A stretch of DNA of 64,000 nt from Halothece sp. PCC 7418 (GTDB lineage: Bacteria; Cyanobacteriota; Cyanobacteriia; Cyanobacteriales; Rubidibacteraceae): NCBI RefSeq assembly GCF_000317635.1, contig NC_019779.1, positions 2,170,001-2,234,000 of the forward strand, given 5' to 3'. Below, piece after piece: positions 37,976 to 53,212 of this stretch. The notes beneath the pieces were generated by a model, which saw only the letters and a program-made list of their open reading frames with translations, had not been told where the DNA came from and did not search any database. Each line of letters opens with the position of its first letter. Within the stretch, counting starts at the first letter, position 1. Made by a program: the position numbers and the translations under genes.

Positions 37976-39013
37976 TTACCGTTTGCGAATGAGTAGATAA
38001 ATAAAAAAAGGTGCTCCCACAGCAGCAGTAATCAGACCACAAGGCAGTTCGGTTGGCGCTAAAAGCATCCGTCCCAATAAATCAGCAATGACAACGAGCA
38101 GTCCACCGATCATTCCTGCTGTGGGCAGTTGTCCAGCATAAGTTCCTCCGACTAACTGACGAGACAAGTGCGGTGCCATTAAGCCCACAAAACCAATTGA
38201 CCCCGCTGTAGCAACTGATGCACTGGCAAGGGCAACACTGGTGAGGAGTAAGATTCCCCGCTGCCATTCAATAGCATTACCTAATCCTCGCGCGGTTTCA
38301 TCCCCAAGACTAAGCACATTCAAATTTCTCGCCATCCCTAAAGCAAGCAAACCAAAGATGACCAACCAAGGTAAAAAGGTCAAGAGTTGTTCCCAACTGC
38401 GTCCATAAACGCTGCCTGTTAACCAAACCAAGGCTTGAGAAACGGTGTTGATATTACCAAACGTAATCATGAGATTGGTGAGTGCAGAGGCAATCAGATT
38501 GAGTCCGATGCCCACAAGAATTAATCGGATCGGAGAACTACCCCCTTGCCAAGCCAGAAGATAAATCAGGACAGCAACCATTAACCCGCCGAGAAAGGCA
38601 ACAACGGGTAAAAGGGCAATGGAAACTGTTGGCAATAAGACTAATAATGTGACAGCAGCGAGAGAAGCCCCTGCATTAACGCCAATGATATCGGGTGCAG
38701 CCAGAGGGTTACGAGTAATCCCTTGGGTAATAGTTCCCGCGATCGCGAGTCCGACTCCGACACCAAACGCAACGAGGGTACGGGGTAAGCGCAAGGTGCG
38801 GATAATAAATCCATAATCGCTGTTCTCACTTTGCCCTAGAATCGTTTTTACTGTTGCGAGGGGAGGAACTGGATATTCCCCATAACTCACACTGATGATC
38901 ATGACCAGTAAGGTGGCAACTGCCAAGATGAGCAAAATGATTGGCACACGCCGATGAATGCGAAAAGACAGAGGAATTTTTTGCAGACGGATGACCAACC
39001 AAGGAGATTTCAT
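37976..39013 (-). CDS. FecCD-family iron-chelate ABC transporter permease
   Basis: 345 residues, about nine to ten spans. Family motifs: RLPRTLVAFGVGVGLAIAGT, GITRNPLAAPDIIGVNAGAS, SIGFVGLMAPHLSRQLVGGT and a C-terminal ELPCGLITAAVGAPFFIYLL. It lies 3 bp after the first permease and 15 bp before the ATPase gene. The two permeases probably form a heterodimeric channel. Confidence 0.92.
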   Translation of the reverse strand: MKSPWLVIRLQKIPLSFRIHRRVPIILLILAVATLLVMIISVSYGEYPVPPLATVKTILGQSENSDYGFIIRTLRLPRTLVAFGVGVGLAIAGTITQGITRNPLAAPDIIGVNAGASLAAVTLLVLLPTVSIALLPVVAFLGGLMVAVLIYLLAWQGGSSPIRLILVGIGLNLIASALTNLMITFGNINTVSQALVWLTGSVYGRSWEQLLTFLPWLVIFGLLALGMARNLNVLSLGDETARGLGNAIEWQRGILLLTSVALASASVATAGSIGFVGLMAPHLSRQLVGGTYAGQLPTAGMIGGLLVVIADLLGRMLLAPTELPCGLITAAVGAPFFIYLLIRKR

Positions 39014-39016
39014 GAG

Positions 39017-40081
39017 TTATGATTTTTGTTTCATTTGCGATTGCACCAGATGAATGAAAAAGGGCGCACCGATTAGAGGCATGACTAACCCCACTGGAAT
39101 CTCTTGGGGTTGAAATAAGAGACGACCCGATAAATCAGCGCAGAGAAGTAAAATAGAGCCGAAAATTGCAGCATAGGGCAACAGCCAGCGATAATCGACT
39201 CCAATCAGGACGCGAGTGATATGAGGGATAACCAAACCAATAAAGCCAATCGGACCCGCGATCGCGACACTAGAGCCAGCTAATAACACCACACTCACCG
39301 CAGCGAGGATCTTAACCAATACCGTTTGTTGTCCTAACCCCTTTGCCACCTCTTCACCAAGAGAAAGCATCGTTAATTGTCTGCCCAAAGCGAAAGCCAG
39401 TAGCAAGCCCACACTCAAGTAGGGGAGAACTTGCCAAAAGACTTCTAGATCGCGTCCTGCAAGCGAACCAGCAAGCCAAAACCGAATTTGATCTAAGGTT
39501 TGCTGAGAGACAATTAAAATTCCACTGGTGAGAGAACTTAAAAAGGCGGTGAGGGCAGCCCCAGCAACCGTTAAGTTAATAGCGGTTAAGCCTCCCGATC
39601 CAAGCGATCCCAAAACATAAACAGTGACTGCAGTTGCTGCTGCGCCCAGAAACGCAAACCAAACATATAGGCTGAGGTCTCCCCCTTGAAACAGAAAGGT
39701 GACAACAACAACGGCGAAAGACGCACCTGCATTAACGCCTAAAATGCTAGGAGAGGCTAAGGGATTGCGAGTAATTCCCTGCATGATTGCACCAGAAACG
39801 GCAAGGGCAGCACCGACAAAAGCAGCAATCAGCGATCGCGGGAAGCGAACGGTGCGAATAATCAGATGTTCCGTTGAATCCTCATTCGCAAAAAAGGCGC
39901 GAGTGACTTCTTCTAAGGGAATGTTCGCAGCGCCGAAAGCTAAATTACTAATAAAAATTAGCAGCAAAACCAACAGCGCGATCGCTACACCAATTGGCGA
40001 GAGCAATGGTAAAGAGAAAATTTTTGTATCGGCAGGCTGACGGTTAAGCAAGTTTCTTGATAATCGTTGGAGAGAAGACAA
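39017..40081 (-). CDS. FecCD-family iron-chelate ABC transporter permease
   Basis: 354 residues. Motifs parallel the second permease: RFPRSLIAAFVGAALAVSGA, GITRNPLASPSILGVNAGAS, GPIGFIGLVIPHITRVLIGV and EIPVGLVMPLIGAPFFIHLV. It is the first gene of the operon; its promoter must lie in the 66 bp before the divergent DUF4351 array, where a 12-bp palindrome is found. Confidence 0.92.
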   Translation of the reverse strand: MSSLQRLSRNLLNRQPADTKIFSLPLLSPIGVAIALLVLLLIFISNLAFGAANIPLEEVTRAFFANEDSTEHLIIRTVRFPRSLIAAFVGAALAVSGAIMQGITRNPLASPSILGVNAGASFAVVVVTFLFQGGDLSLYVWFAFLGAAATAVTVYVLGSLGSGGLTAINLTVAGAALTAFLSSLTSGILIVSQQTLDQIRFWLAGSLAGRDLEVFWQVLPYLSVGLLLAFALGRQLTMLSLGEEVAKGLGQQTVLVKILAAVSVVLLAGSSVAIAGPIGFIGLVIPHITRVLIGVDYRWLLPYAAIFGSILLLCADLSGRLLFQPQEIPVGLVMPLIGAPFFIHLVQSQMKQKS

Positions 40082-40110
40082 TCACCCTATATCCTAAGTT
40101 TATTAGTAAT

Positions 40111-40122
40111 TACTTGCAAGTA
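40111..40122. promoter_or_regulatory. 12-bp perfect palindrome between divergent operons
   Basis: TACTTGCAAGTA, 30 bp upstream of the Fec-type operon start and 25 bp upstream of the DUF4351 array. It could be a repressor operator. It does not match the classical Fur box well. Confidence 0.4.
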
Positions 40123-40147
40123 TTTCTCTTAATCCTTCCCAGAATCA

Positions 40148-40981
40148 ATGTCCTACGATAATCTGTGTAAACTCTTATCCGAAAAATATCCCGCCAATTT
40201 CGCCAGTTGGGTACTCAATACACCACAAACGGATGTGGAAGTGCTCAAAACCGAACTCAGCATTGAACCCATCCGTGCTGATTCCGTGACTTTCTTACAA
40301 CTACAGGGACGAATTCTCCATTTAGAGTTTCAAACCCAATGGCGATCGAATCCACCAATTCCTCTACGAATGTTAGATTATTGGGTGCGTCTCCATCGTT
40401 TATACCGCTTACCGATTACCCAAGTGGTGGTTTTGTTACTCCCCCCTCCTGAGACTGAGGTGATTGAAACCCGTTTTACCCTCGAAAATACTGAGCATCA
40501 ATATCAAGTGATTCGGTTGTGGGAAGAAAATCCAGAGTTATTTCTCCATGATCCCGCATTGTTACCCTTAGCCCCATTAACGGCGACTAATGAACCACAA
40601 ACCCTATTGCAACAAGTAGTGGAACAAGTGAATGAACTGGAAGAAGAGAAGAGGACAGAAATTTCAGCTTACGCGCAAATTGTCGCTGGGTTAAAATATG
40701 AGAAAGATTTGGTGAAACGATTATTCAGGGAGGGGATGATGCGAGAGTCAGTCATTTATCAAGATATTATCCAAGAAGGAAGACAAGAAGGAAGACAAGA
40801 AGGAGAACGATCGCTGATCCTCCGCCTTTTAACCCGACGAGTGGGCGAGTTACCACAACAGTGGCGCGATCGCGTGAATCGTCTTTCTCTAGAACAATTA
40901 GAAAACCTCGGAGAAGCGTTACTTGATTTTCAGGGAATTGGAGATTTAGAAACTTGGTGGGATACATCCGAGGAAAACTAA
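40148..40981 (+). CDS. DUF4351/Rpn-like PD-(D/E)XK protein, array copy 1
   Basis: 277 residues. The N-terminal about 150 residues look like the Rpn/transposase_31-type nuclease-like domain common in cyanobacteria, with D45 (RADSV) and an E60-x-Q62 motif (LHLEFQTQW) in the place of (D/E)xK. A charged helical linker follows, with EGRQEG repeated. The C-terminal about 60 residues (LILRLLTRRVGELPQQWRDR, then LSLEQLENLGEALLDFQGI) form the DUF4351 domain. Relatives are recombination-promoting nucleases or their domesticated paralogs; no activity is proven. No Shine-Dalgarno is seen. Confidence 0.85.
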   Translation: MSYDNLCKLLSEKYPANFASWVLNTPQTDVEVLKTELSIEPIRADSVTFLQLQGRILHLEFQTQWRSNPPIPLRMLDYWVRLHRLYRLPITQVVVLLLPPPETEVIETRFTLENTEHQYQVIRLWEENPELFLHDPALLPLAPLTATNEPQTLLQQVVEQVNELEEEKRTEISAYAQIVAGLKYEKDLVKRLFREGMMRESVIYQDIIQEGRQEGRQEGERSLILRLLTRRVGELPQQWRDRVNRLSLEQLENLGEALLDFQGIGDLETWWDTSEEN

Positions 40982-41032
40982 AGCAGAAATAGGGATAATA
41001 GTAAAATTCAAGTCCATTTTCCCTTTCTCTAA

Positions 41033-41863
41033 ATGTCCTTCGATAATCTGTGTAAACTCTTATCCGAAAAATATCCCGCCAATTTCGCCAGTTGGGTACT
41101 CAATACACCACAAACGGATGTGGAAGTTCTCAAAACCGAACTCAGCATTGAACCCATCCGTGCTGATTCCGTGACTTTCTTACAACTACAGGGACGAATT
41201 CTCCATTTAGAGTTTCAAACCCAATGGCGATCAAATCCACCGCTTCCTCTACGAATGTTAGATTATTGGGTGCGTCTCTATCGTTTGTATCGCTTACCGA
41301 TTACCCAAGTGGTGGTTTTATTACTCCCCCCTCCTGAGACTGAGGTGATTGAAACCCGTTTTACCCTCGAAAACACTGAGCATCAATATCAAGTGATTCG
41401 GTTATGGGAAGAAAATCCAGAGTTATTTCTCCATGATCCCGCATTGTTACCTTTAGCCCCATTAACGGCGACTAATGAACCACAAACCCTATTGCAACAA
41501 GTAGTGGAACAAGTGAATGAACTGGAAGCAGAGAAGAGGACAGAAATTTCAGCTTACGCGCAAATTGTCGCTGGGCTAAAATATGAGAAAGATTTGGTGA
41601 AACGATTATTCAGGGAGGGGATCATGCGAGAGTCAGTAATCTATCAGGACATTCTCAGAGAAGGAGAAGAAAAAGGAGAACAGAGAGAACGATCGCTGAT
41701 CCTGCGTCAACTAACGCGACGGGTGGGCGAGTTACCGCAACAGTGGCGCGATCGCGTTAACAGTCTTTCTCTAGAACAATTAGAAAATCTGGGAGAAGCC
41801 TTACTTGATTTTCAGGGAATTGGAGATTTAGAAACTTGGTGGGATACATCCGAGGAAAACTAA
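41033..41863 (+). CDS. DUF4351/Rpn-like protein, array copy 2
   Basis: 276 residues, nearly identical to copy 1 except for the linker, which reads REGEEKGEQRERS in place of the EGRQEG repeats, and a few substitutions (I to L in SNPPLPLR, H to Y in VRLYRLYR). The same nuclease-like residues are kept. Confidence 0.85.
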   Translation: MSFDNLCKLLSEKYPANFASWVLNTPQTDVEVLKTELSIEPIRADSVTFLQLQGRILHLEFQTQWRSNPPLPLRMLDYWVRLYRLYRLPITQVVVLLLPPPETEVIETRFTLENTEHQYQVIRLWEENPELFLHDPALLPLAPLTATNEPQTLLQQVVEQVNELEAEKRTEISAYAQIVAGLKYEKDLVKRLFREGIMRESVIYQDILREGEEKGEQRERSLILRQLTRRVGELPQQWRDRVNSLSLEQLENLGEALLDFQGIGDLETWWDTSEEN

Positions 41864-41914
41864 AGCAGAAATAGGGATAATAGTAAAATTCAAGTCCATT
41901 TTCCCTTTCTCTAA

Positions 41915-42736
41915 ATGTCCTTCGATAATCTCTGTAAACTCCTATCAGAAAAATATCCCGCCAATTTCGCCAGTTGGGTACTCAATACACCACAAACGGA
42001 TGTGGAAGTTCTCAAAACCGAACTCAGCATTGAACCCATCCGTGCTGATTCCGTGACTTTCTTACAACTACAGGGACGAATTCTCCATTTAGAGTTTCAA
42101 ACCCAATGGCGATCAAATCCACCGCTTCCTCTACGAATGTTAGATTATTGGGTGCGTCTCCATCGTTTATACCGCTTACCGATTACCCAAGTGGTGGTTT
42201 TGTTACTCCCCCCTCCTGAGACTGAGGTGATTGAAACCCGTTTTACTTTAGAAAACACTGACCATCAATATCAAGTGATTCGGTTATGGGAAGAAAATCC
42301 AGAGTTATTTCTCCATGATCCCGCATTGTTACCTTTAGCCCCATTAACGGCGACTAATGAACCACAAACCCTATTGCAACAAGTAGTGGAACAAGTGAAT
42401 GAACTGGAAGCAGAGAAGAGGGCGGAAATTTCAGCTTACGCGCAAATTGTCGCTGGGCTAAAATATGAGAAAGATTTGGTGAAACGATTATTCAGGGAGG
42501 GGATGATGCGAGAGTCAGTAATTTATCAAGATATTATCAGAGAAGGAGAGGAAAAAGAAGGACGATCGCTGATCCTCCGTCTTTTAACCCGACGGGTGGG
42601 AGAGTTACCGCAACTGTGGCGCGATCGCGTGAATCGTCTTTCTCTAGAACAATTAGAAAACCTCGGAGAAGCGTTACTTGATTTTCAGGGAATTGGAGAT
42701 TTAGAAACTTGGTGGGATACATCCGAGGAAAACTAA
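41915..42736 (+). CDS. DUF4351/Rpn-like protein, array copy 3
   Basis: 273 residues. The linker is the shortest (REGEEKEGRS). It has ENTDHQYQ for ENTEHQYQ, and PQLWRD for PQQWRD. The downstream spacer to copy 4 differs from the others (TAAGGTAAAAAGGG), so this junction is independent or has been converted. Confidence 0.85.
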   Translation: MSFDNLCKLLSEKYPANFASWVLNTPQTDVEVLKTELSIEPIRADSVTFLQLQGRILHLEFQTQWRSNPPLPLRMLDYWVRLHRLYRLPITQVVVLLLPPPETEVIETRFTLENTDHQYQVIRLWEENPELFLHDPALLPLAPLTATNEPQTLLQQVVEQVNELEAEKRAEISAYAQIVAGLKYEKDLVKRLFREGMMRESVIYQDIIREGEEKEGRSLILRLLTRRVGELPQLWRDRVNRLSLEQLENLGEALLDFQGIGDLETWWDTSEEN

Positions 42737-42785
42737 GGTAAAAAGGGATAATACTAAAATTCGACTCCATTTCCCTTTTTTCTAG

Positions 42786-43620
42786 ATGTCCTTCGATAAT
42801 CTCTGTAAACTCCTATCAGAAAAATATCCCGCCAATTTCGCCAGTTGGGTACTCAATACACCACAAACGGATGTGGAAGTTCTCAAAACCGAACTCAGCA
42901 TTGAACCCATCCGTGCTGATTCCGTGACTTTCTTACAACTACAGGGACGAATTCTCCATTTAGAGTTTCAAACCCAATGGCGATCGAATCCACCAATTCC
43001 TCTACGAATGTTGGATTATTGGGTGCGTCTCTATCGTTTGTATCGCTTACCGATTACCCAAGTGGTGGTTTTATTACTCCCCCCTCCTGAGACTGAGGTG
43101 ATTGAAACCCGTTTTACCCTCGAAAATACTGAGCATCAATATCAAGTGATTCGGTTGTGGGAAGAAAATCCAGAGTTATTTCTCCATGATCCCGCATTGT
43201 TACCCTTAGCCCCATTAACGGCGACTAATGAACCACAAACCCCTATTGCAACAAGTAGTGGAACAAGTGAATGAACTGGAAGAAGAGAAGAGGACAGAAA
43301 TTTCAGCTTACGCGCAAATTGTCGCTGGGTTAAAATATGAGAAAGATTTGGTGAAACGATTATTCAGGGAGGGGATGATGCGAGAGTCAGTCATTTATCA
43401 AGATATTATCCAAGAAGGAAGACAAGAAGGAAGACAAGAAGGAGAACGATCGCTGATCCTCCGCCTTTTAACCCGACGAGTGGGCGAGTTACCACAACAG
43501 TGGCGCGATCGCGTTAACAGTCTTTCTCTGGAACAACTAGAAAACCTCGGAGAAGCGTTACTGGATTTTCAGGGAATTGGAGATTTAGAAACCTGGTGGA
43601 ATACATCCGAGGAAAACTAA
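42786..43620 (+). pseudogene. DUF4351/Rpn-like gene, array copy 4, frameshifted
   Basis: Same gene as its neighbours, but a run of four C at 43240-43243 (three in other copies) shifts the frame after NEPQTP. The first frame stops at 43274 after 162 residues; the remainder is open from 43228 to 43620 (130 codons) with an intact linker and DUF4351 domain. A one-base deletion would restore the protein, so it may be a recent loss, a slippage-switchable gene or a sequencing error. Confidence 0.9.
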
Positions 43621-43671
43621 AGCAGAAATAGGGATAATAGTAAAATTCAAGTCCATTTTCCCTTTCTCTAA

Positions 43672-44517
43672 ATGTCCTTCGATGATCTGTGTAAACTCTT
43701 ATCCGAAAAATATCCCGCCAATTTCGCCAGTTGGGTACTCAATACACCACAAACGGATGTGGAAGTTCTCAAAACCGAACTCAGCATTGAACCCATCCGT
43801 GCTGATTCCGTGACTTTCTTACAACTACAGGGACGAATTCTCCATTTAGAGTTTCAAACCCAATGGCGATCGAATCCACCAATTCCTCTACGAATGTTGG
43901 ATTATTGGGTGCGTCTCTATCGTTTGTATCGCTTACCGATTACCCAAGTGGTGGTTTTATTACTCCCCCCTCCTGAGACTGAGGTGATTGAAACCCGTTT
44001 TACCCTCGAAAACACTGAGCATCAATATCAAGTGATTCGGTTATGGGAAGAAAATCCAGAGTTATTTCTCCATGATCCCGCATTGTTACCTTTAGCCCCA
44101 TTAACGGCGACTAATGAACCACAAACCCTATTGCAACAAGTAGTGGAACAAGTGAATGAACTGGAAGCAGAGAAGAGGACAGAAATTTCAGCTTACGCGC
44201 AAATTGTCGCTGGGTTAAAATATGAGAAAGATTTAGTGAAACGATTATTCAGGGAGGGGATGATGCGAGAGTCAGTAATTTATCAAGATATTATCCAAGA
44301 AGGAAGAGAAGAAGGAAGACAAGAAGGAGAACGATCGCTGATCCTCCGTCAACTAACGCGACGGGTGGGCGAGTTACCACAACAGTGGCGCGATCGCGTT
44401 AACAGTCTTTCTCTGGAACAACTAGAAAACCTCGGAGAAGCGTTACTTGATTTTCAGGGAATTGGAGATTTAGAAACTTGGTGGGATACATCCAACGACT
44501 ATTCAACGAGGGGATGA
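43672..44517 (+). CDS. DUF4351/Rpn-like protein, array copy 5 with altered C-terminus
   Basis: 281 residues, full nuclease-like and DUF4351 domains (linker EGREEGRQEGERS). The normal ending DTSEEN is replaced by DTSNDYSTRG. This is because the gene end has recombined with an internal segment (AACGA.TATTCA..GAGGGGATGATG) of another copy, which begins the sixth fragment. Confidence 0.85.
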   Translation: MSFDDLCKLLSEKYPANFASWVLNTPQTDVEVLKTELSIEPIRADSVTFLQLQGRILHLEFQTQWRSNPPIPLRMLDYWVRLYRLYRLPITQVVVLLLPPPETEVIETRFTLENTEHQYQVIRLWEENPELFLHDPALLPLAPLTATNEPQTLLQQVVEQVNELEAEKRTEISAYAQIVAGLKYEKDLVKRLFREGMMRESVIYQDIIQEGREEGRQEGERSLILRQLTRRVGELPQQWRDRVNSLSLEQLENLGEALLDFQGIGDLETWWDTSNDYSTRG

Positions 44518-44747
44518 TGCGAGAGTCAGTAATCTATCAGGACATTCTCAGAGAAGGAGAAGAAAAAGGAGAACGATCGCTGATCCTCCGTCAACTAACG
44601 CGACGGGTGGGCGAGTTACCGCAACAGTGGCGCGATCGCGTTAACAGTCTTTCTCTGGAACAATTAGAAAACCTGGGAGAAGCGTTACTGGATTTTCAGG
44701 GAATTGGAGATTTAGAAACCTGGTGGGATACATCCGAGGAAAACTGA
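44478..44747 (+). pseudogene. DUF4351 C-terminal fragment, array copy 6
   Basis: Homology to the array starts at about 44491 (QRLFNEGMMRES) and covers the linker and the whole DUF4351 domain to DTSEEN. The nuclease-like N-terminal domain is missing. An ATG at 44478 in this frame gives 89 residues, so a stand-alone DUF4351 peptide could be made, overlapping the end of copy 5 by 40 bp. Confidence 0.85.
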
Positions 44748-44756
44748 ACAGTTATC

Positions 44757-44781
44757 GTAGGGTGGGCAATGCCCACCCTAC
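44757..44781. repeat. Perfect 12-bp inverted repeat (dispersed cyanobacterial palindrome)
   Basis: GTAGGGTGGGCA-A-TGCCCACCCTAC. I recall this motif as widely scattered in cyanobacterial intergenic DNA. It closes the array on the right and may serve as a transcript end. Confidence 0.75.
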
Positions 44782-44794
44782 TACAATGTAGTAT

Positions 44795-44826
44795 TAATAA
44801 ATAACAAAAGCGAGCAAGTCGCTCGC
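44795..44826 (-). terminator. Rho-independent terminator of the hcp cluster
   Basis: On the minus strand: 6-bp stem GCGAGC / GCTCGC with loop GACTT (44810-44826), then TTTTGTTATT. It lies 26 bp past the stop of the last gene. Confidence 0.75.
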
Positions 44827-44851
44827 CTAAAATAAAAGAATTAGCAGAACT

Positions 44852-45346
44852 TTATTCTGATTTTGCTCGTAACTGTTCCCGTGCATCTGCTGCTAAAACT
44901 AAACACAATAAAGCAACTGCACTTTGCCATTGTTGACGGATTTGTTGATCTTCAACCTGATTAAATAAGCTGACAAGGCGTGGAATCGCTTGTTCTAAAG
45001 CAACTGGCGGAACGGGACGATGTAATTCCACTAAATGCTCAATACTTTCTTCGTTTTTAAGAAAATTTGCCACCCAAGTTGTTGTATGATTTGGATTATC
45101 AGGAACTCGCTTAATTTTTAATTCTTGTTTGAGCCAAACGTAAAAAGCAGGAAGTTGATTTTCTAAAACTGATTTGGCAGTGGGTAAAGTTTCTCGTAAA
45201 AGATCAAGGTTGAGTATTCCTAATTCTGATTGAAATGCCTCTTGTTTCGGTAATTCCGTTGCATTTAAGGTGAGCAAGGTTTCTACTGTGGATTCTGAAA
45301 GATTGAGATGTTGCGTAAAACTATCGACAGTTGCTGTTTGATTCAT
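44852..45346 (-). CDS. Hypothetical protein, last gene of the hcp cluster
   Basis: 164 residues, mostly helical, soluble. No signal peptide, cysteine cluster or recognised domain. It follows hcp by about 100 bp, a gap that contains a leftover cupin tail, and precedes a terminator, so it is probably co-transcribed with the methyltransferase-cupin-hcp genes. By context it may be linked to nitrosative or redox stress; no function is assigned. Confidence 0.7.
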   Translation of the reverse strand: MNQTATVDSFTQHLNLSESTVETLLTLNATELPKQEAFQSELGILNLDLLRETLPTAKSVLENQLPAFYVWLKQELKIKRVPDNPNHTTTWVANFLKNEESIEHLVELHRPVPPVALEQAIPRLVSLFNQVEDQQIRQQWQSAVALLCLVLAADAREQLRAKSE

Positions 45347-45353
45347 TGCTAAA

Positions 45354-45443
45354 TTATTCTCCTCTGGTTTCTACTGCGGATAAAATCAGCCAAAAGGCTA
45401 AATTGGTCGTTGCTTCGAGAGCGTGGGGGGCGTGCGCTGGCAT
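45354..45443 (-). pseudogene. Duplicated 3' fragment of the cupin gene
   Basis: 29 codons beginning MPAHAPHALEATTNLAFWLI, then LSAVETRGE, matching the end of the cupin gene at 47110-47472 (MPAHAPHALEATTNLAFWLI, LSAVETQGKSIEN). DNA identity is about 85-90 percent by eye. The first ATG lies directly after the hcp stop. It shows that a cupin tail exists on both sides of hcp. Confidence 0.85.
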
Positions 45444-45444
45444 A

Positions 45445-47097
45445 TTAATGAGATAAACAAGCAGCTAAATCTTCTTCAGGAGTTTTAATTGCCTGTAAGC
45501 CATAATTATCAGATAAAAGTTTCAAAACATTTGGGGAAATAAACGCAGGGAGAGTCGGACCTAAGCGAATATTTTGAATGCCCAGATGAAGCAGAGTTAA
45601 CAGTACAGCAACCGCTTTTTGTTCGTACCACGATAAAATCATCGAGAGCGGAAGATCATTAACATCCATTTCAAAAGCATCAGCAAGAGCAAGAGCAATT
45701 TGAATCGCCGAATAAGCATCATTGCACTGTCCAACATCCATCAGGCGCGGTAAGCCTGAAATTTCTCCCAAATTTTGATCAAAGAAACGAAACTTTCCAC
45801 AAGCGAGGGTCAAAACAACACAATCTTCTGGAACTTTTTCCACAAATTCAGTGTAGTAAGTTCGCCCTGGTTTAGCACCATCGCATCCGCCAACTAAGAA
45901 AAAGTGTCGAATTTTCCCCTCTTTGACCGCGTTAATCACTGTGTCAGCAACACTCAAAACTGCATTATGTCCAAAGCCAACTTTTACGGTTTTTGGCACT
46001 CCTGTTTCTGTAAAGCCAGGTAAAGACAATGCTTTTTCAATCACTGGTGAGAAGTCTGGAAAGCCATCTTCACCTTCTTGTAAGTGATTCAGATGAGGAT
46101 ACCCCACTGGACCAAGACTGAAGAGTTTATCGGTATAGTGATCGTGAGGAGGCATTAAACAATTGGTGGTGACAATAATGGCACCAGGAAATTTAGCAAA
46201 ATCTTTCGTCTGGTTTTGCCACGCCGTACCATAATGTCCGTAAAGGTGCGGATAGGTCTCTTTTAGTTTCGGATAGCCATGAGCCGGTAACAGTTCTCCA
46301 TGAGTATAAACGGTAATTCCTGTTCCTGCTGTTTTCTTGAGAATTTCCGGTAACTGTCGAATGTCATGACCCGAGACTAAGATTGCTTTACCCAGTTTAG
46401 GATTGAGAGGAACGGTGGTTGGTACAGGATGACCATAAGTTTGAGTATGTCCAGTATCAAGAAGTTCCATTGCCCGTAGGTTTTGTTTTCCTACCTCTAG
46501 GGCTAAGTTGACCCACTGTTCTAAGTTTAAGGTTGTATCAGACAATGCAGCGAGAGCCTGATGGGTAAAGCGATAGACTTCCTCATCATCTTGACCTAAC
46601 TCATGAGCATGAAATGTATAAGACGCAACGCCTTTAATGCCATAAAGGACGGTGAGTTTGAGAGAAAAGATATCAACGGCATCTTTCCCCACTTGGCTAA
46701 TAAATTTTAAGGCAACCTCTGCTCCTTGTTCAACGAGGCTTTCTTGAAAATCGGGTTCAAAGTTAGTAATCGAAGACCAGTTGATAGAAGGGTTGATTGC
46801 TTCAACTTGAGTTTTCAGGGTTTCACGGTGCGCGATCGCGCGGGTGATATAATTCTCAAATCGGCTCGGATTAAAATTGACGTTGGTCATGGTGGCAAAC
46901 AAGGCTTCACAGGTAAAAACGTCGGTGCGGTAAGTCTCAATTCCTTTTGCTTTTGCCTCAAGGGTGACGGTTGCTAACCCTTGCAGACAATGAATTAATA
47001 AATCTTGGATCGCGTTCACTTCTGGGCTTTTCCCACAAGCTCCAAATTGATGACATCCGTCGCCACTGGCTGTTTGTTCACACTGTTCGCAAAACAT
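45445..47097 (-). CDS. hcp: Hybrid-cluster protein (hydroxylamine reductase/NO-stress)
   Basis: 550 residues, full length. The N-terminus MFCEQCEQTASGDGCHQFGA carries the cysteines for the FeS cluster. Later motifs include HDIRQLPEIL, ITVYTHGELLPAHGYP, TTNCLMPP, FLVGGCDGAKPGRTYY and VGQCNDAYSAIQIALALAD, which bind the hybrid Fe-S-O cluster. Hcp reduces NO to N2O or hydroxylamine to ammonia and is involved in protein S-nitrosylation in E. coli. The partner reductase hcr is absent. It is preceded by cupin and methyltransferase genes and faces a Crp/Fnr regulator. Confidence 0.95.
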   Translation of the reverse strand: MFCEQCEQTASGDGCHQFGACGKSPEVNAIQDLLIHCLQGLATVTLEAKAKGIETYRTDVFTCEALFATMTNVNFNPSRFENYITRAIAHRETLKTQVEAINPSINWSSITNFEPDFQESLVEQGAEVALKFISQVGKDAVDIFSLKLTVLYGIKGVASYTFHAHELGQDDEEVYRFTHQALAALSDTTLNLEQWVNLALEVGKQNLRAMELLDTGHTQTYGHPVPTTVPLNPKLGKAILVSGHDIRQLPEILKKTAGTGITVYTHGELLPAHGYPKLKETYPHLYGHYGTAWQNQTKDFAKFPGAIIVTTNCLMPPHDHYTDKLFSLGPVGYPHLNHLQEGEDGFPDFSPVIEKALSLPGFTETGVPKTVKVGFGHNAVLSVADTVINAVKEGKIRHFFLVGGCDGAKPGRTYYTEFVEKVPEDCVVLTLACGKFRFFDQNLGEISGLPRLMDVGQCNDAYSAIQIALALADAFEMDVNDLPLSMILSWYEQKAVAVLLTLLHLGIQNIRLGPTLPAFISPNVLKLLSDNYGLQAIKTPEEDLAACLSH

Positions 47098-52567: not shown

Positions 52568-53212
52568 CTATTTTTGAAACTGTTGCATCAACCAAGCGCT
52601 GACTTTCCCATGATTCATTAAGCGAGTGCGTTGAAAGGCTTGTTCTAATAAACTAATCTCTAACCCCGATAAAACTTGCGATTCTCGAATGCGATAACTC
52701 CCTTTATTTCTAATCGCAAAAGCGAGGATTTCTACATTTTGCACATCAATAATCCAGTATTCACTTACACCTAAATCTTCATAGAGTAACCGTTTATTTC
52801 CTTTATCATCTAATAAAGATGTATTTGCTACTTCAATTACTAAAGTCGGGGGGGGATATTGTTCAAGATCAACAATTCCCGTTCCCCAAGGAATCGTTTC
52901 TGCTGTTTCTCCAATATAGAAAGAAACATCAGGTTGTGCTTCTCTTACTCCCGTTTTGCGATAGGTGCAATTATCTTTTCCGTTTAAGTCAATATTATTA
53001 ATTGCAGCAAATAAATTCACCGCATAAATGACAATATTGTGGTCGCTAGCGTGGTCATTTCCAACAGGTGACATTTCAATCCTCATCTGATGGTTGTAGT
53101 AATAGCTTTTTCCCTTTTCATCAGTCAGATAGTCTAGAGTCTGCAAATAATTATTCCAACTGCTGGTTATCCAAGTGTCTGCGGGAATTTTTTTCGGACT
53201 GCAACGGCTCAT
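52568..53212 (-). CDS. Uma2-family (DUF820) restriction-endonuclease-like protein
   Basis: 214 residues. The PD-(D/E)XK core is seen: QPDVSFYIGE with the Asp, LVIEVANTSLLDDKGNKRLL with E-x-A (in place of E-x-K) and a downstream K, then YEDLGVSEYWIIDVQ. Uma2 genes are highly multiplied in cyanobacteria and remain without proven function. It is monocistronic. Confidence 0.85.
   Translation of the reverse strand: MSRCSPKKIPADTWITSSWNNYLQTLDYLTDEKGKSYYYNHQMRIEMSPVGNDHASDHNIVIYAVNLFAAINNIDLNGKDNCTYRKTGVREAQPDVSFYIGETAETIPWGTGIVDLEQYPPPTLVIEVANTSLLDDKGNKRLLYEDLGVSEYWIIDVQNVEILAFAIRNKGSYRIRESQVLSGLEISLLEQAFQRTRLMNHGKVSAWLMQQFQK

Follow-up and report, generated by a model that had tools for sequence, protein, structure and literature searches.

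Why should a cyanobacterial chromosome carry one nuclease-like gene five times over in direct repeat, followed by a further copy of its tail? Such an array adjoins phycobilisome genes in the 64,000-nt stretch of Halothece sp. PCC 7418 DNA analysed here (the window, to whose positions coordinates refer unless a locus is named). The reading that we favour, with a probability of about 0.7, is that it consists of Rpn-type toxin-antitoxin units, each with an internal antitoxin, plus a spare antitoxin (RpnS), and that it most likely serves in phage defence.

Five direct-repeat units of 0.87-0.89 kb each span positions 40148-44517 of the forward strand, starting at 40148, 41033, 41915, 42786 and 43672 (spacing 885, 882, 871 and 886 nt), and a C-terminal fragment extends to 44747. 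Over the first 300 nt, units 2-5 are 96-97% identical to unit 1. Open reading frames with a DUF4351 match make up the full-length Rpn-like genes of unit 1 (RpnL, 40148-40981, 277 aa), unit 2 (41033-41863, 276 aa) and unit 3 (41915-42736, 273 aa), and a full-length gene is also found in unit 5 (43672-44517, 281 aa, with its TGA stop at 44515-44517). Unit 4 is divided, by a 1-nt frameshift relative to its sister units, into ORFs at 42786-43274 (162 aa, with a shortened nuclease part) and 43228-43620, leaving four rather than five intact full-length genes. Spacers of about 50 nt precede units 2-5, as represented by that between units 1 and 2 (40982-41032), and the homology of unit 1 to the other units begins at its ATG, upstream of which no Shine-Dalgarno (SD) sequence is visible. 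The preliminary description of five near-identical tandem units with a C-terminal fragment is correct as to the repeat, but it passed over the frameshift in unit 4, the 76 sites at which the alignment of units 1-5 varies and, above all, the internal start described below. Since the units differ at so many aligned sites, an array of such sequence divergence is not to be taken for an assembler's duplicate; the genome itself is one contig of 4,179,170 bases. Elsewhere in the same genome (G000:C1, 3971791-3973428, reverse strand; L009 and L010) lies a second adjacent pair of DUF4351-like paralogues, with 29% identity to unit 1.

The tail of the proteins is DUF4351 (PF14261, 6.1e-24), which bears out the earlier assignment, and this family is matched by the tails of units 1-3 and 5, by the C-terminal ORF of unit 4 and by the terminal fragment (6e-21 to 4e-25); the Pfam family spans the tail only and carries no assigned function. 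The likeness of the remainder to Rpn nucleases, also proposed earlier, holds for the relatives, 15 of 18 diverse ones matching TIGR01784 (best 2.9e-46), but the window copies score under the curated cut-off of 52.1 bits (38.4 for unit 1, 37.3 for unit 5), and unit 3 gave no match to this model at E <= 1. On account of these scores, set beside the matches of the relatives, we file the window proteins as a divergent cyanobacterial branch of Rpn nucleases outside TIGR01784 membership, a placement supported by sequence comparison, in which they would be Rpn-like in working. In plasmid relatives the annotation uses either name, DUF4351 or Rpn.

The catalytic residues D63, E82, Q84 and R94 of Escherichia coli RpnA align with D45, E60, Q62 and R74 of the window proteins. 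Among the relatives with a residue at the position, these are conserved in 101/101 (D45), 101/101 (E60), 92/102 (Q62, replaced by E in nine and K in one) and 101/103 (R74). D4 is likewise conserved (99/99); MAFFT places it at RpnA D22, with the motif I residue D11 of RpnA in a gap. The preliminary description had taken E-x-Q as a hint of a non-nuclease, mistakenly, as E-x-Q is the normal motif of the Rpn family. An E-x-Q motif III and a motif IV arginine are also described for the YhgA-like/Transposase_31 family (PF04754, COG5464; PMC1913061); the window proteins share both, but PF04754 is matched by only one of the 18 relatives, at a mere 0.0089. Neither a search of the nuclease-part profile against E. 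coli RpnA (no hit) nor hhalign (no significant match) linked the two directly. An AlphaFold2 model from six sequences only, of low confidence (pLDDT 47.2, pTM 0.32), has the order helix-helix-strand-strand-strand-helix, which is no more than suggestive of a PD-(D/E)XK fold. In 20 relatives, the same nuclease part with the same internal start is joined to an RpnA-type tail.

What such an internal start may mean is indicated by work on E. coli (Zhong et al. 2023, preprint, PMC10327210), the text of which reports that rpn genes yield a toxic full-length protein, RpnL, and an internally started tail, RpnS, that blocks it. Every one of the five window units has a GGGAGGGG tract and, at codon 198, an ATG with an SD energy of -11.1, just ahead of the DUF4351 tail. 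The predicted intragenic RpnS proteins are encoded at 40739-40981 (unit 1, 80 aa), 41624-41863 (unit 2, 79 aa; of two usual ATGs only the second is present), 42506-42736 (unit 3, 76 aa), 43378-43620 (unit 4, 80 aa, in a frame intact 3' of the frameshift) and 44263-44517 (unit 5, 84 aa), all on the forward strand. Modelled alone, RpnS consists of helices (mean pLDDT 76).

The internal position is methionine in 102 and leucine in 3 of 105 aligned relatives. In 67 non-redundant genes the mean SD energy at this start is -7.96, against -3.51 under synonymous recoding; none of 500 recoding simulations reached the observed mean, and 65 of the 67 genes lie below their own null median. Other internal methionines of the 102 Met-bearing genes (n = 306) average -0.74. 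Codon choice follows the same pattern, Arg-Glu taking the form xxG-GAG at 34 of 50 occurrences at the site vs. 10 of 160 elsewhere (Fisher 2.6e-18, counted over all 105 genes, related ones included). As a positive control, M244, the proven internal start of E. coli RpnA, came out strongest of 14 methionines (-8.3). By these statistics on the sequence, the internal start is under selection across the relatives; the SD is absent from one relative family (L027/L151) despite the presence of tail genes. The RpnL start has a mean SD energy of only -0.89 in 32 genes and reaches -6 or lower in three of them, whereas the internal start does so in 54 of 67 genes, and a weak RpnL start would favour an excess of antitoxin.

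The terminal fragment starts at the internal start of the units and forms a spare, or orphan, RpnS gene (44517-44747, forward strand, 76 aa) whose ATG overlaps the TGA of unit 5 as TGATG. Given this overlap of start and stop, the orphan is probably translationally coupled to the last toxin. A three-unit array in another genome of the same genus (G003) ends in the same junction, as TAATG after a perfect AGGAGG; the SD energy there is -11.4, and that of the window orphan, -6.6, is weaker than at the in-gene sites. The recent amplification proposed in the preliminary description is at best partly right, as another species has this terminal fragment too, with exactly the same junction. The two orphans differ from each other at 11 of 44 synonymous and 3 of 142 nonsynonymous sites (p 9e-6), and recopying from sister units by gene conversion could add to this low nonsynonymous change. 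The helix of the orphan falls four residues short of the one in the preceding toxin, in the window and in G003 alike; in the window, unit 3 shares the helix length of the orphan. According to the text of PMC10327210, four-residue repeats lying 8-20 residues into RpnS influence pairing, which in E. coli was lost when a single repeat was added, so that the orphan may fail to neutralise unit 5. Directly 3' of the orphan, at 44755-44790, lies a GTAGGGTGGGCAATGCCCACCCTAC-like palindrome, a candidate repeat element or terminator.

The window and G003 arrays have different neighbours and occupy unrelated genomic places. Their nuclease parts differ by a dS of 0.16-0.26 (12 pairs of intact units), vs. 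1.53, 1.52 and 0.84 in a comparison set that consists of three other genes from these two genomes. Because array dS is thus about 0.2 where the comparison genes give 0.84-1.53, the simplest reading to which these values point is that the array was horizontally transferred. Relatives are present in 52 of 60 related genomes and in 54 plasmid records, of which 50, under ten organism names, are all cyanobacterial. The end of a Group II intron (RF00029, 71.5 bits; L044, 9139-9215, forward strand) lies about 140 nt upstream of the G003 array and is a possible clue to its arrival. In the window a prismane-family protein (PF03063, 45445-47097, reverse strand) has a dS of 0.15 to its relative in genome G005, to which two neighbours give 0.59 and 1.23; no match to it was found in genomes G001 or G003, and by these sequence comparisons it looks like a recent transfer. 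PADLOC-DB holds no model for the window array proteins. In a PADLOC scan of ten neighbours, three had hits, two of them apparently through shared domains (methyltransferase, Crp-type regulator), and the protein at 52568-53212 (reverse strand) matches the candidate defence models PDC-S17 (9.6e-17) and PDC-S03.

The part of the units that varies most is a helix whose repeats start 11 residues past the internal methionine. Measured from there to RSLIL, it is 12, 11, 8, 12 and 12 residues long in the five successive units and 8 residues long in the orphan, the helix of unit 2 breaking a multiple-of-four pattern; among the relatives, non-zero length differences are multiples of four in 84 of 140 pairs, which are not independent. 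Among units 1-5 the mean pairwise difference amounts to 0.08-0.145 over unit positions 586-765 and does not exceed 0.058 in the other 45-nt windows; between the intact window units, the nuclease part has a dS of 0.04-0.11 and the tail one of 0.11-0.40. Exchange between units is suggested by a PHI test (units 1-5, 10 of 1000 permutations). It is conceivable that the array is an antitoxin-diversifying device, in which exchange would keep the nuclease uniform and the helix diverse, one locus would offer several specificities and the coupled spare would buffer mismatches; we regard this as a tentative idea with the odds against it. It rests on one array, since in the three-unit G003 array (L044) diversity peaks at 811-855 (0.190) and not at the helix, nuclease dS is about equal to tail dS, and PHI on all eight units of both arrays gave no exchange signal. 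Several standalone RpnS-like genes, with differing repeat numbers, lie beside full-length Rpn genes in two relatives (L150, G050:C120, 3944-7391, reverse strand; L151, G011:C25, 3669-4707), those of L151 without a Shine-Dalgarno sequence. If the array were a diversifying device, such multi-antitoxin clusters would represent a second version of that strategy.

According to the toxin-antitoxin reading, each intact unit would encode a full-length DNase toxin of PD-(D/E)XK type, RpnL (D45, E60-x-Q62, R74), and an internal ribosome site with the ATG at codon 198 would yield RpnS, made up of the variable repeat helix and the DUF4351 domain. RpnS would pair with its counterpart at the C-terminus of RpnL, keeping RpnL inactive until released, and the spare RpnS, its start lying over the stop of the last toxin, would probably be made by translational coupling; by analogy, the role would most likely be phage defence. 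The units, the internal-start selection, the variable helix, the orphan in two species and the low divergence pointing to transfer were computed here; DNA cleavage, toxicity, neutralisation and defence are what we infer by carrying over published E. coli work.

Selection on the internal start is compatible with any separate product, including a co-subunit: RpnS might assemble or activate the nuclease, the array and its spare copy setting the subunit ratio. Zhong et al. (PMC10327210) cite such a helping partner, Cas11d, made inside cas10d, but report that RpnS blocks RpnL in the relatives they tested; in unit 4, moreover, the toxin frame is broken and the RpnS frame intact, a single and weak case against a co-subunit, to which we give little credence. 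The repeats might instead be a neutral or selfish by-product, an ordinary Rpn gene duplicated in tandem by unequal recombination and not yet collapsed, with the fragment as debris and the repeat changes as slippage. Published rpn arrays are indeed ascribed to tandem direct duplication (PMC10327210), and the mosaic signal of the PHI test in units 1-5, the multiple-of-four length changes (as expected from slippage, though drawn from non-independent pairs) and the position of the L044 diversity peak away from the helix all accord with such an origin. Against it, the orphan retains its frame, its start overlap and a low nonsynonymous change in two species (this last a possible product of gene conversion too), and similar standalone tails occur at 5 of 29 best-hit loci; a mere by-product seems improbable to us.

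The suggestion in the preliminary description that the protein may drive its own amplification would make it a transposase-like or mobilising enzyme; it draws on the frequent annotation of relatives as putative transposases, and overexpressed E. coli Rpn proteins are reported to raise RecA-independent recombination (PMC5350276). Against it, a search for inverted repeat pairs of at least 40 nt in 38000-47000 returned none, and autonomous transposition is without evidence according to the text of Zhong et al. (PMC10327210), so that we consider this explanation scarcely credible.

The toxin-antitoxin reading would extend the gene-within-gene idea to cyanobacterial DUF4351 nucleases, whose internal ribosome site shows a statistical signal of selection, and the array and orphan antitoxins offer natural variants for asking whether repeat number decides the fit of antitoxin to toxin. 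A literature search, to which most subscription papers were out of reach, found no title on cyanobacterial Rpn arrays among those listed, and in the literature searched we did not find the internal-start selection in cyanobacterial DUF4351 nucleases, the shared coupled end orphan or the multi-antitoxin clusters described. The array is not a new class, because each component, namely Rpn toxin-antitoxin pairs, downstream rpnS genes and tandem rpn arrays, is already in print. The gene-within-gene system has been demonstrated for E. coli genes and for one Clostridioides difficile gene expressed in E. coli (PMC10327210). With the E. coli RpnL/RpnS system, as described in the main text of that preprint, the window array shares a nuclease with a C-terminal tail, an internal start with an SD, nearby four-residue repeats, standalone downstream rpnS genes and tandem duplication; it differs in its cyanobacterial host, in a DUF4351 tail in place of the RpnA-type tail, and in its five units closed by an orphan whose ATG overlaps the stop codon of unit 5.
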